Origin: Petrosia ficiformis
Taxonomy: Eukaryota > Porifera > Demospongiae > Haplosclerida > Petrosiidae
Direction of reading: 5' to 3'
Length of the DNA stretch: 64,000 nucleotides
NCBI GenBank assembly: GCA_947044365.1
Contig: OX345647.1
Span: 1,898,001 to 1,962,000 of the forward strand
The translations under genes and the position numbers were made by a program. The notes beneath the pieces are model-generated. The model made no database searches, had not been told where the DNA came from, and saw only the letters and a program-made list of their open reading frames with translations. Positions 6,608-43,500 of this stretch are shown in pieces. Numbering within the stretch: position 1 is the first letter of the stretch; each line of letters begins with the position of its first letter.

Positions 6608-36067
<29,460 letters not shown>

Positions 36068-36100: not shown

Positions 36101-36573
36101 CGGTCGTTAACTGGAGACCACGCCTTATCCAATTTCGCGCCACGGTTGTTTTTACTGGGCACTTAGTCTTTAATTAAATAATTACGGTATATATCAAATC
36201 ATACTTAGCAACCAACCAACAATTTTTCATAGCGTTGCTATGGACGCTCCTCCTTGGTAATCATATTCATAGTATAAAAACACATTCCAACTACACATTA
36301 TACATCTCTAAGGCAACATTGAACATACATACAACCACGCATGCATAACTTGTGGTTTGAAGAACTGCACATTGTTCCAGCTGCTCCAATATTTTGAAAG
36401 TGTTGCAAGTGGGTCCTGTTTGCAGCCATATACCTCAAACCACAAAGTTTTCACAACTGTAATTCACATTGCAGATCAAAGATAGAAGGTAACACTATAC
36501 ATATATACTAAAATTACATTGCCACTTATTTTATTTAAGCTGCAAATGAACATATCATTAATACAATAATAGA

Positions 36574-39500
36574 ATGGAGTTAGATGACCATATGGAGGCC
36601 TTGGAAAAGTTATGTCGGGTGTGTGGTGGAAACATCAACAAATACAGAGTCAAATATGTTTGTGAAGAACATGCTGACAATCTTGGAATCACATTTCATC
36701 TTTCCATCTTGACTGATCAACCAGACATTCATCCTAGACTGTTCTGTGACTGTTGTTACGCCGTGATGAAGCGAAAAATTACTGCAATGGAAAACAACAA
36801 AGTGTACCTTCCATCAATAGATCTCTTTGTATGGGAACAACACACACATACACACACATGCACTACATGTAATCAAGTTAAATCAGTTAAGAAAGGAGGA
36901 AGACCAAAAAAGGGTAGGAAGAATAGAAGGAAACCACAGCTTGACAGCTGTCATGATCTTATTGCCCATACCAAACAAATCTCTCCTGAAGCATTCTATC
37001 ATACTGATCAGTTTCTCACATACAATATCCCTCTTTCCATTGATTTATCTAAGTCTGATATTGAATGCTCTATCTGTTGCAATCTCTTAAATAGTCCCGT
37101 TCAGTTGATCTGTCAACAGCCATTTTTTTTGTGTGCATCGTGTCTCATATGTTGGTTTGAGTCATCACAGTCAACACGTTGTCCATCATGTGACAAATAT
37201 CACTCCCTAACAACAAAGGAAATCACACCGATCAATCCCATGCACTTTAGAGTCTTGGAGAGTGTTGTAGTTAAGTGCAACTTCAAAGGGACTTGTGGGA
37301 AAAGGGTTCGACTGAAAGATCTTCATCAGCATACTAACAGCAACTGCTCCCAGTACTATACATCTGATCATCAACCTAATACAGTGTCTCTGTCAGATAT
37401 CCTATCTCAGCCAATCACCTCAACAACTTCTGTGACAGAGAAACAAGTAGCTACACATCTTGTGAAGAGAATGATGATTGATAATCATCTAACACTTCAA
37501 ACTGGAGGACAGGTATATAGTTTATAAATAATATTCCTATTCATGTTATGTACTGTGTAATACTTAATTATAGCCTCTCACCTTTGTCCATATACCATCA
37601 CCACGTGTATCGTCATGTGATGCCTCATCGAGAACCATCAAGAGAAGATCTTTGGAAATGATGGAAGTTAGAGCATCTCTAAGTGGTAATTCTGAAAACC
37701 AGCAATTTCAGTCCGAAATCAGCCAACTGAATAAGGAGGATAGGCAACAGCTACTTAAGTCATTAGATATGACAACGGAAATAAGTACCAACCAAGGCCT
37801 AGCTATGAAGGCAGATCTATCAATACCCTGGAACAAATTGAGAACTATGAGAAGGTACCACAGGTGTTAATTGCATTCCCACTTATATAATATTACAACA
37901 TAGATGGATGAAGGAGTGGGGGATACAAATTGCAAGTGAGAAAAAGCTTAGAAAAAGAGCAGCAGAACTCATAGACAATGACCTCATAGGAGAGACAGCC
38001 ATGTTCTCTTTTTCATTGAAGTCTGGAGGTGAAGAAATGAAGTCCTCACCAATCGTGTACATTCCACATCTAAAAAACAAAATAATTGATTTACTTGAGA
38101 AGAATGACAGGTTATATATATTGTAATTACACAGTCAGTGTCACTTATTCTTGTAATTGTAGATTAAACAAACTGACCTGGCATAGTGACAGGATTCCTT
38201 CCAACGAAATCTGGGTTAAACTTGGAGGTGATAAGGGTGGTTCATCCTTTAAAATGAACTTTCAAATCCTAAATGTTGAAAATCCAAATTCTGTTCACAA
38301 CACCTGTGTTTTTACAGCATTTCAAGCTGTAGATACACTTTTTAATCTCCATGTAGCTCTTGATCGCTACAGTGAACAGGTTGACAAACTACAACAAACA
38401 GAATGGAAGTATGTTTTATCAATATGTTTAACAATTCTCTAAAATTATTATAATTATAAGGGGAAAGCAGTTTCGAGTATTTCTTAGTGGAGACTATGAG
38501 TTCCTGTGTAAGATGTACGGAATCTCAGGAGCTTCAGGTATCTTACCCCTTATTGTCTAAATTATCACTATTTAAATAACTTATTCAGGGCGGCATTGCT
38601 GTTTATGGTGCCTAGCTCCCAGAGAAAAATTTAAAGACAATGAGTCCTTTCCTTTACGATCCCTATCATCAATGGAATCTGACCATCAAAAATTCCTCCA
38701 ATCTGGAGGAAACCCGAAAAGCGTAAAATTTTTCAACAATGTTCTACAGAAACCATTTTTCCAAATTCCCCTACTACAGGTATAAATACATACATAATTG
38801 TTATAATAGTGTAAATGGTAGATTAATTATCTTCAAAAGGTTTGTTTACCTGGTCTTCATATCTCACTTGGTCTGTTCCATCGTATGTTTACTCTTCTTG
38901 AAGACGAATGTCATACATTAGATTTGATGTTGGCAAGCAGAGACATGTCAGTTATTAATGAAACATGCACACCCATACCCTTCCAAGAATACAGATCAAA
39001 ACTGGAACAAAAAACATCCCTTCTAAATGACAGAGTCACTGCTGAGAATGAGGTAATGGCAGCAGAACAATTTATCACTCTACTATCAGTACTTGGTGAA
39101 AGTCCACAAATCAAATCTCTTGAAGAAATTGCTTTGTACAACAGGAGACTAATTGCTGAGATAGTAAGTTTAACTTGTCGATATTATAGTAACCTGTATG
39201 AAATCAATGCAAAATTATAGGACAAGCGAATACAAGTATTGGAAAAAAATTTAAAACTATTTGCTAGGGAAGAAGGGCCATTTGTCCATTGCCTGGATGA
39301 GACACTAGCTACATTTAATGTACAACGGCAAGCATACTATTCCGGAACATTTGTTGGAAACCATGTACATAGAACTCTTAAGGTACAAGACTGTGCATAA
39401 TTATATTCTAGCATACACGTTACACAACAATCTCTATAGCCTGAAAACATCACTATTCTATGTGACGCACCTGTACATCTTGCCAATTCAATATGTCCAA

Positions 39501-39987
39501 CTCTCACCCCTGAATCGCAAAGAATTTGTACTAAATTCTCAAAAGCATTCAATCTTCTGAGTGAATGTCACTCTTTCTATAACAGCAAAGAAATAGAAGA
39601 AGACAATTTACAGAAGTTAGGTAAAACAAAACAACGTAAATACAAACATAAGTGTTACTATATCCTTTCTTTTTAACAGAAATCTCTTTAGTCAACTTCA
39701 TGACTTACTATCGTAAGGAATTTCCTGATGCATCTGTTACACCAAAGATGCACATGATGGAAAATCATCTTATTCCACAAATACAAAAATGGAAATTTGC
39801 TATGGGATTCCTTGGAGAACAGGGTGCTGAAAGTATCCATGCATCTTTTAATTCAATCGAAAGATCGTATGTCTCTATTCCCAACAAGGTTGATCGATTG
39901 CTTAGAGTTATGCAAGAGCATCTCCTTCGAATTGATCCAGAGAACCGACACTTAGCACCACAACCACCAAAGAAAAAGCAGTTGTAA
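36574..39987 (+). CDS. RAG1L: RAG1-like protein: ZDD/RING region plus DDE transposase core
   Basis: Ten exons join without a stop into 971 residues: 36574-37512, 37574-37854, 37904-38110, 38163-38408, 38461-38537, 38589-38779, 38840-39163, 39221-39382, 39440-39620, 39680-39987. Introns are only 49-61 bp. Residues 14-99 match the RAG1 zinc-binding dimerisation region (C14xxC17, HPRLFCDCC at 53-61, WEQHTHTHTCTTC at 87-99). Residues 165-206 are a RING (CSIC, C180, CASC, CPSC), where Gln replaces the usual His after C180. Residues 235-258 are the following zinc finger. The core has LGGDKGG (D499), SGDYEFL (D569), CLWC (C588, C591), MHMMENHL (H894, H899) and GFLGEQGAE (E916). These align with RAG1 D600, D708, C727/C730, H937/H942 and E962; the D708-C727 gap (19) and the HxxxxH spacing are identical. 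I infer a DDE-type DNA recombinase/transposase with an E3-like N-terminus. N-RAG-TP elements are the nearest described type I know. No RAG2 partner is seen. Confidence 0.85.
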
Positions 39988-40429
39988 ACTATAATTTTAA
40001 ATTATCATTTAACATTGCACACATTACATTCACAACACACAGTAACTTTGTCCTCGATTTTAGTGAGGAAAGAAAAAACGTGGCATCATAGCTACACAAA
40101 AACATTTTAGTATTAACAAAACACCACTATAATACATACCTATTTTACTTGAAAAAACTTCTGGAACTCCAGTAAAGTGTCTTCTGTGGTAGTCATTCTC
40201 AATTACTTCCGTGTTCATAACTCCAGAAAGGAAAATCACATAGACGCACAACAAAGTTTGAGCGAAAGCTCTAGACGTGACCTCTTGAAAGAAGGTCAGA
40301 AAGGCCACATGGCTATAATCATATTCATGATATAAACCAGTTTTGTTGTTGCTATGAAGCATTACAATCGCGTTACTATGGATAATTATGACATCATTAC
40401 GTAACTAAGTTTCCACATTTCAATTACGG
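39988..40429. other. 3' flank inside the candidate transposon
   Basis: No clear gene. A 100-codon minus-strand ORF (40362-40060) with two hydrophobic stretches starts with ATG but has no recognisable family or splice-linked partner, so I leave it uncalled. Confidence 0.4.
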
Positions 40430-40446
40430 AAAACAACCGTGGCGCG

Positions 40447-40596: not shown

Positions 40597-43500
40597 ATGA
40601 TCACTCTTCTCTTCTGCCTGTTTGGGTCATTTTTATTTGCTGAGGGAAAAGACAAAATAAATGTCCATCTTGTTGCACACACCCACGATGATGTTGGTTG
40701 GTTGAAGACGATTGATGAATATTACTATGGAGGTATGTGTATACTGATGGCTCCTGCAAATCTCACCACTTCATGTAATCCCACTTTGTTCTAATAAAAT
40801 ATTTTGTTTAAAATCACCGTTTGAACCAACCATGAGATGAAGTATTATAATATTATTTGCAACCATGCAAAAGAAAAGAGTTGTTTTTAACTTTTCCAAA
40901 ATCCTTCTGTTCATTTTCAGCTGTCTTATAAGAAAAAGAAATGAAACTTTCAATTATTGAAGATACTGAATTTTGTTTTTGTTAGTCTCAATGCCAGACG
41001 TTGGCGAGTAAGGGACGGAATGTCTGGACAAACTCACTCTGAGGAACATGTCGCAGAAAGTCGCATAACTTTCCGTGCACTACGTATGGTAATTTGAAAT
41101 GACTGTGTGTTTGTGCATCTGTCCCTCCCTCATGAACGTCTGGCCTCGAGATTATGTTTTTGTTGGCTTTTTTGCAAATGCAAATAAGCGATTGATCTTG
41201 GACATTTGGAAAAAACTTGAAAATCAAACAAGATTATAATTCCTAAACTCACAATTGAGAATCACTTTACCAAATACACAAGCATTACATTTCTATCACT
41301 GTATAGAGGTGATGCTGGTGATATAGTGTGAAGAAAGAACCAGTAGGCCAGGTCACTCAGGGAAGTGCCTAACAATATTTGAGAGCTTCATTTAGAGTAC
41401 TCTAAACACCCTACCTGGCAGTAGAAAGACTCTCAGACTGACTTTCTGGCTTTTAACCATATGAACATCACAAAATCTTAGTTAGAAAGGCTATTGAAAT
41501 TTGACTTATTTTTGGTAAAAGTCGTTCATCATGACCTCAGAAAAATGTTTATAACTTTAGTTTGGAATGACCAACAGTCTTTTTACCAACTCATTTTCAT
41601 ATAATTATCCTTTCCATTCTTTTTTTGCATATGTCAAATTTCAATTCATTACTTCATTACAGTATAATCATGTATGACATTAAACTATACATATAAAGGC
41701 ATCACATCCTAATTTTGAGGTCACTGTGAATGCAAGTATCCAGTTTTTCTGATTGCATTTTGTATTGATTTAAATGAAGCATTATCAACACAATTCCATT
41801 CTGAGTGATGGGCAGTAAGCAGTTATTATACCATAACTGCTTACTGCCCATCACTTAGTAAGGAATTGTGTTGATAATGCTTCATTTAAATCAATACAAA
41901 ATGCGATCAGAAATAATACGTGGTTAATCATAATATATACCATATTATGATTAACCACGTAAATATTAAATTCATGAATTTTATTATACTAATAGCTGAC
42001 AAAAACATCCAAGATGCTGCAGTTCAGTACATATTGGACACTGTAATGAATGAACTTGGAAAAAACAAAGATCGTAAATTCATCTATGTAGAAATGGCTT
42101 TCTTCATTCGATGGTGGAATGAGCAGACCGATGACATGAAGAATAAAGTTAGTTAATGAATAATTAATTTTACTATTCTACCAATTTATCACATCCCTCC
42201 ATTTTCTGGATAAGGAAAGAAATAAAAATTAACATGTATATTTATCAGTTGTCTTGTAATAGAATGTGTTACTAAAAATAGCATCAATGTAAATCTATTA
42301 ATAGACTGTTACTAAAAATAGTATTAATTGTCTAGTAATAGAATGTGTTACTAAATATAGCATCAATGTAATAGACTGTTACTAAAAATAGTATTAATTG
42401 TCTAGTAATGGAAAATGTTTTAATAATAGTTACTAAAAGATATTTTCTCATTTATAATTGTATGTACATTTTGCAGAGCCCATTGATCATTAAATCTCAT
42501 TTATGATAGAAAATACATGTATTGTGATAGATTTTCTTGTATTAGGTGAAGGATTTTGTCAAAAATGGTCAGTTGGAGTTTATAAATGGTGGATGGTGTA
42601 TGAATGATGAAGCAGCCACACACTATAATGCCATTATTGATCAGATGACAGTTGGATTGACATTTATTGAGAAAACGTTTGGGAAAGAAGCTCGCCCTAC
42701 TATTGGATGGCATATTGATCCTTTTGGTCATTCAGCTGAACAAGCTAGTCTCTTTTCGCAGGTCAGATAATACGTTCTACCTGTGGTCATTACTAAATGT
42801 GTTGGATGTTATATGATCGGATTGTAAATGTATAATACATGTACTTTAATTGTGGTCTTTGGTTTAGGATTGCATGATTACCCTCATCACAATGTGACGA
42901 GAATTTTAGATTCTTTTGCCTCTTTGAAACAATTTGTAAATACCATATGTATATACACTATCTAACATGCACTTGACCCGCAATATTTATCTATCTATCT
43001 ATTTGTCTATCCATTCTATCTATCTGTCTAACTATCTATTCATCTGTTGATATATCTATCCATATATCCATTCATTTATCCATCCATTCATTCATCCGGC
43101 CATCTATGCATATATTGATCTATCAAACTATCCATCCATCTGTTGATCTAACAATTCAGCCACTGTAACATTCAAATTGCCACCGTATATTCATACTGGT
43201 TTAATGTGTTATTCATTATTAAGATGGGCTTTGATGGATTTTTCTTGGGTCGTATTGACTATGATGATAAACATTTGAGATTGAATACAAGTACTATGGA
43301 AATGATATGGAGAGGAAGTCAAAGTTTAAAGGATGCCTCTGATATATTCACTGGTGTTCTTTATAATAATTATGCAGCTCCTGAGGGGTTTTGTTTTGAT
43401 GCTCAATGTGGTGTTCCTCCTATTCAAGTGAGTATATGTGTATATACTTATGTGGTAGGTGTAACAGTTAGTAAAAAATCACCATACAGTACAATCAGTG

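Follow-up and report, generated by a model that had tools for sequence, protein, structure and literature searches.

RAG1 is the enzyme that shuffles vertebrate antibody genes. The origin of its N-terminal half is disputed, with one account invoking fusion with N-RAG-TP (PMC8355894) and another an ancestral fusion followed by loss (PMC4411706). Chapaev transposons, whose transposase has been equated with DUF1280 and falls in one clade with RAG1 in a tree of RNase H-like proteins (PMC3985635), are marked by 3-4 bp target-site duplications, 5'-CAC/GTG-3' ends, an Asp-Asp-Glu (DDE) triad and C(2)C, LH and H(4)H motifs (PMC4079192). Two subgroups of Chapaev with a RAG1-like 'Chapa' zinc region followed by a RING finger have already been published (PMC4411706), and Transib elements produce duplications of 5 bp (PMC8355894). 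Because C(2)C and H(3-4)H motifs are common to EnSpm, Mirage, Chapaev, Transib and RAG1 (PMC12730594), they cannot by themselves indicate RAG1. Here we analyse a 64,000-nucleotide stretch of the sponge Petrosia ficiformis (contig OX345647.1, positions 1,898,001 to 1,962,000; hereafter the window), in which a preliminary description had recognised a RAG1/Transib-type gene. The gene is almost certainly that of a 4301-bp Chapaev transposon, whose single ten-exon gene encodes a predicted RAG1-like DDE transposase of the cut-and-paste type, which would excise the element at its CAC ends and insert it elsewhere.

Ends, gene and family of the element

The preliminary description took the gene at 36574-39987 as the feature; the gene exists, and the true feature is the whole element that surrounds it. 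Among sister copies reaching the ends, similarity to the window stops at 36138-36142 on the left and at 40441 on the right. Inverted repeats (CACGGTTGTTTT / AAAACAACCGTG) sit at both of these edges with GCGC on each side, and they carry the 5'-CAC/GTG-3' termini that are a hallmark of Chapaev.

36141-40441, + strand: whole Chapaev-type transposon, 4301 bp, with edges placed by loss of similarity to sister copies, plus ends and duplication
36137-36140, no strand: left target-site duplication GCGC (flanking-duplication comparison)
40442-40445, no strand: right target-site duplication GCGC (flanking-duplication comparison)
36141-36152, + strand: left terminal inverted repeat CACGGTTGTTTT (end comparison)
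40430-40441, - strand: right terminal inverted repeat, AAAACAACCGTG as read on the + strand

The ends and the 4-bp duplication are thus observed directly, and the same holds for duplications at other copies. Nineteen loci were examined (the window and 18 fetched stretches), and seven are two-ended if the repeat may differ at up to 2 positions. All seven are flanked by a duplication whose greatest length is exactly 4 bp (GCGC, TTCC, AGCC, AACC, ACAA, TACA and CAAC). For one locus, L032, the left edge was placed by eye, beyond a 7-bp duplication within its repeat.

As the preliminary description had claimed, ten exons join into one unbroken frame of 971 residues, from an ATG at 36574 to a stop at 39987. 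The nine introns are all GT-AG and measure 49-61 bp. Splicing is predicted; in its favour are the directly observed open frame, the splice sites, a low ratio of nonsynonymous to synonymous changes per site (pN/pS), and relatives whose coverage of the query is as high as 100%. The residues D499, D569, C588, C591, H894, H899 and E916 are all found at the positions given for them.

36574-37512, + strand: exon 1, with the N-terminal zinc region, the RING finger and a zinc-finger-like segment, C235-C258
37574-37854, + strand: exon 2, joined frame
37904-38110, + strand: exon 3, joined frame
38163-38408, + strand: exon 4, containing D499
38461-38537, + strand: exon 5, containing D569
38589-38779, + strand: exon 6, containing C588 and C591
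38840-39163, + strand: exon 7, containing L653-H654
39221-39382, + strand: exon 8, joined frame
39440-39620, + strand: exon 9, joined frame
39680-39987, + strand: exon 10, containing H894, H899, E916, E920 and the stop

The family assignment rests on three lines of evidence, namely the 4-bp duplications at seven of seven copies, the sister copies, and a match of Pfam family DUF1280 (PF06918) to residues 332-554 (3.8e-20; 72.9 bits against a cut-off of 25). All of the Chapaev marks are present, comprising the CAC/GTG ends, the 4-bp duplication, the DDE residues, C588-x2-C591, L653-H654, H894-x4-H899 and DUF1280. These findings point to Chapaev and do not support the earlier assignment to a RAG1/Transib-type gene. 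The element is likely a distant cousin of RAG1, not a RAG1 gene, and likely belongs to the RING-bearing sort of Chapaev.

Inside its ends, the element holds only 433 bp to the left and 454 bp to the right of the transposase gene, and its longest other stop-to-stop frame is 114 amino acids (40060-40404, - strand). The absence of a RAG2 partner, also part of the earlier description, is borne out, as there is no room for a RAG2-like gene beside that of the transposase. Pfam searches of the genome for RAG2 gave nothing, with controls that were equally silent.

The N-terminal zinc region and RING finger

36613-36870, + strand: RAG1-like N-terminal zinc region (C14-C99), matching Pfam RAG1_imp_bd and, in the PDB, RAG1 only
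37066-37191, + strand: RING finger (C165-C206)

The proposal of a RAG1-type zinc dimerisation region followed by a RING finger is supported. Pfam RAG1_imp_bd matches residues 2-113 (7e-8), and when residues 1-105 alone are compared with the PDB at E values up to 10, RAG1 is the only protein found (three of three distinct sequences, best 6.6e-8), with the match lying mainly in residues 35-99. We name this region 'Chapa' from its position and its RAG1 homology, following the described likeness of Chapa to the N-terminal part of RAG1 (PMC4411706). The window protein has the layout of the RING-bearing Chapaev subgroup, with the Chapa zinc region preceding the RING finger, and the zinc region, RING finger and core occur together in 10 of 34 alignment rows, the window's included.

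Some further features of exon 1 were observed. A KGGRPKKGRKNRRK stretch follows the zinc region (window 36892-36933, residues 107-120) and looks AT-hook-like by eye; a KGGRP stretch recurs in the relatives P0018, P0022 and P0039. An ENA protein, P0042, is 97% identical to exon 1, so that public databases already contain this species or a near one.

The predicted catalytic core

38230-38232, + strand: D499, predicted first catalytic acid, aligned to RAG1 D600
38492-38494, + strand: D569, predicted second catalytic acid, aligned to RAG1 D708
38600-38611, + strand: C588-x2-C591, the C(2)C motif, aligned to RAG1 C727/C730
38855-38860, + strand: L653-H654, the LH motif, from the alignment of relatives
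39751-39768, + strand: H894-x4-H899, the H(4)H motif, aligned to RAG1 H937/H942
39829-39831, + strand: E920, predicted third catalytic acid, aligned to RAG1 E962, with E916 four residues earlier

To describe conservation, the window protein was aligned with 33 of 40 relatives, and the counts given are of rows with a letter at the position. D499 is conserved in 32 of 32 rows, D569 in 23 of 26, and both C588 and C591 in 20 of 20, while L653 and H654 are each kept in 22 of 25. H894, H899 and E916 are each conserved in 28 of 29 rows, and E920 in all 28. The predicted catalytic triad comprises D499, D569 and E920, which are conserved and align to RAG1 D600, D708 and E962. The preliminary description had named E916 as the third acid; judged from the alignment, E920 is the more likely residue. 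It had also read the Cys/His motifs as marks of RAG1, for which C(2)C and H(3-4)H are not specific (PMC12730594, PMC4079192).

The claim that the core has a RAG1 fold gains support from structure searches with Foldseek, made with a predicted model of the relative P0018 and not of the window protein. The predicted core fold is of RAG1 type, over RAG1 residues 459-1007, and RAG1 and amphioxus RAG1L ranked above Transib. In sequence alignment, the acids and zinc ligands pair with those of RAG1. The model of P0018 suggests that the core of the window protein folds like that of RAG1.

Related copies and genomic setting

The window family includes six more near-full copies at 97-99% DNA identity, so that sister copies elsewhere in the genome are a direct observation. 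Deletions or insertions disrupt the frame of each of these six sisters, and the window copy is open. Constraint on the protein is seen directly as well, with pN/pS of 0.17-0.29 between the window copy and its sisters (five of five copies counted), meaning that codon changes are mostly silent per site. Within the 191-Mb genome, the left 80 bp has at least 7 occurrences and the right 81 bp at least 9 (two of them partial), the window being included and both numbers being lower bounds. The window family looks small in its host genome, which has 15 DUF1280 stretches.

Four of the seven two-ended copies belong to related families with CACGGGTGTTT ends. Among such related elements, L040, L041, L042 and L043 all carry these ends and are flanked by 4-bp duplications; between L041 and L042, which occupy separate sites, identity reaches 99.6%, a sign of recent movement. 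Two window-family copies (L034 and L035) lie 20.7 kb apart on contig C6 (227000-230400 and 247700-251100), within a segment that is 99.8% identical over at least 9.6 kb and represents either a segmental duplication or an assembly duplicate.

The right end of the element lies about 155 bp upstream of the predicted start of a glycosyl hydrolase family 38 (GH38; alpha-mannosidase-like) gene (40597-40731; Pfam 1.9e-6), and the insertion is probably in the promoter region of this gene. On the minus strand, a candidate first exon was noted by eye immediately to the left of the element (about 36010-36067), and the insertion may be between two head-to-head genes. Farther away, window positions 31865-32431 (- strand) encode a repetitive SFGRGSSRYDRPDTG protein stretch that is weakly nucleoporin-FG-like, under the Pfam cut-off.

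Discussion

We propose that a dimer of the transposase would bind both CACGG ends of the element. D499, D569 and E920 would hold metal ions for cutting the ends and joining them to the target, and C588/C591 together with H894/H899 would hold a zinc. The ends would be joined with a 4-bp stagger, which repair would convert into the target-site duplication. By analogy with RAG1, the N-terminal zinc region and RING finger might serve in dimerization, ubiquitin ligation or contact with host factors, and the catalytic chemistry may not require them. Since only 433 + 454 bp lie outside the gene within the ends, the transposase probably acts without a RAG2-like partner.

Several observations weigh against a RAG1-like reading of this protein. 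No match to the RAG1 core Pfam family was found in the window protein, and no PDB match to the core was obtained with either the single sequence or a profile, RAG1, amphioxus RAG1L and Transib chains included. The hhalign probability for the core against RAG1 is 2-4%, and a forced global alignment to RAG1 collapsed to 7 columns with a score of 4.0. The pairing of D499, D569, C588 and C591 with RAG1 residues comes from an alignment set to retain low-confidence columns, and the sequence evidence linking the core to RAG1 is weak on its own. The nonamer-binding domain was not detected, with 28 of 100 shuffles reaching the real score. As to structure, the folded core is that of a crinoid relative, 30% identical to the window's own protein, whose gene model has an insert resembling a retained intron, and the Foldseek root-mean-square deviations are large (9-19 A) over long alignments. 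For P0018 alone, the best match of the N-terminal part is the RING finger of RNF213 (9.6e-4), with RAG1 at 0.004 and 0.07; in a profile search RAG1 tops 215 sequences, and the others among the matches listed are RING proteins.

Of the alternative explanations, membership in the N-RAG-TP lineage, first described in Aplysia, survives best and is compatible with the Chapaev assignment, in that the lineage may have its complete form in Chapaev elements bearing both zinc region and RING. N-RAG-TP has been described as a transposon made wholly of RAG1 N-terminal-like sequence (PMC8355894), resembling exon 1. However, three listings of homologues (40, 6 and 7 proteins, several of them nameless) include none with an Aplysia name, and we regard this relationship as possible but doubtful.

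Domestication, by which an immobile RAG1-like host gene would have taken on a cellular task, is very improbable. The window copy is the sole uninterrupted frame among seven near-full-length copies, its pN/pS is low, and it lies directly upstream of the GH38 mannosidase-like gene. Set against this, the matching ends and target duplication are intact and near-identical sisters exist; purifying selection among transposon copies is expected anyway; and the L041/L042 pair shows, for a related family in the same genome, the near-identity at separate sites seen in recently mobile elements.

A RAG-like (RAGL/ProtoRAG) or Transib transposon or remnant, which would make it a genuine near relative of RAG1 in a basal animal, is more improbable still: RAG1 and amphioxus RAG1L do outrank Transib in the structure searches and residues 1-105 match RAG1 only, but the duplications are of 4 bp and not 5 bp in seven of seven copies, the family match is to DUF1280 instead of the RAG1 core, at sequence level the core matches no chain of RAG1, amphioxus RAG1L or Transib, and the element has no space for a RAG2-like gene.

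If the Chapaev assignment is extended to the origin of RAG1, we can suggest only tentatively that the full RAG1 layout (zinc region, RING finger, and RAG1-fold DDE core with its zinc clasp) pre-existed in a single Chapaev transposase of the earliest animals, at a time when RAG2 had not yet joined. In that case, RAG1 would have acquired its N-terminal half and core together from a Chapaev-like ancestor, and a merger of Transib with N-RAG-TP would be unnecessary. The predicted core fold lends structural support to a kinship between Chapaev and RAG1 that is barely visible in sequence. An open-frame Chapaev with a full RAG1-like layout, intact ends and a known duplication also provides a test object for RAG2-free transposition, and is suited to asking what the RING finger does and whether RAG-like hairpins form at the cut ends.

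The sponge Ephydatia muelleri contributes 32 of the 40 relatives (14 named, 18 recognised by 'Em' gene names). This count is in keeping with a sponge host without proving it: E. muelleri has many copies, so the 32 are not independent, and transposons also cross between species. The remaining relatives include proteins of sea cucumber, crinoid, acorn worm, lancelet and coral. In the part of the literature examined on Chapaev in sponges or Amphimedon and on RAG1 and transposition in Ephydatia, no such element from sponges is described. The kind of element is already known, as PMC4411706 reports a RAG1-like zinc region and RING in Chapaev; the present analysis adds an element together with its ends, gives structural support to a RAG1-type core in the family, and corrects the third acid.

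The closest described system is the Chapaev with Chapa and RING of Kapitonov and Koonin 2015 (PMC4411706), which shares with the present element the order of zinc region, RING finger and DDE core. Published Chapaev elements also share the CAC...GTG ends, the 3-4 bp duplication and the C(2)C, LH and H(4)H motifs. Unlike these, the present element has a ten-exon gene and resides in a genome where the closest relatives found are mostly sponge proteins. The window protein is a member of DUF1280 by gathering score, a family that Pfam labels as of unknown function and that PMC3985635 equates with Chapaev transposases. Transib, represented by the HzTransib structure, differs in having no RAG1 N-terminal region (PMC7204232, PMC8355894) and in its 5-bp duplications (PMC8355894). 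Vertebrate RAG1 resembles the element in the order of N-terminal zinc region and RING finger, in the predicted core fold (RAG1 459-1007) and in the aligned catalytic and zinc residues. In contrast to RAG1, the element has a core that plain sequence search does not recognise and no detected nonamer-binding domain, and it is mobile with inverted repeats, lacks RAG2, and makes duplications of 4 rather than 5 bp.
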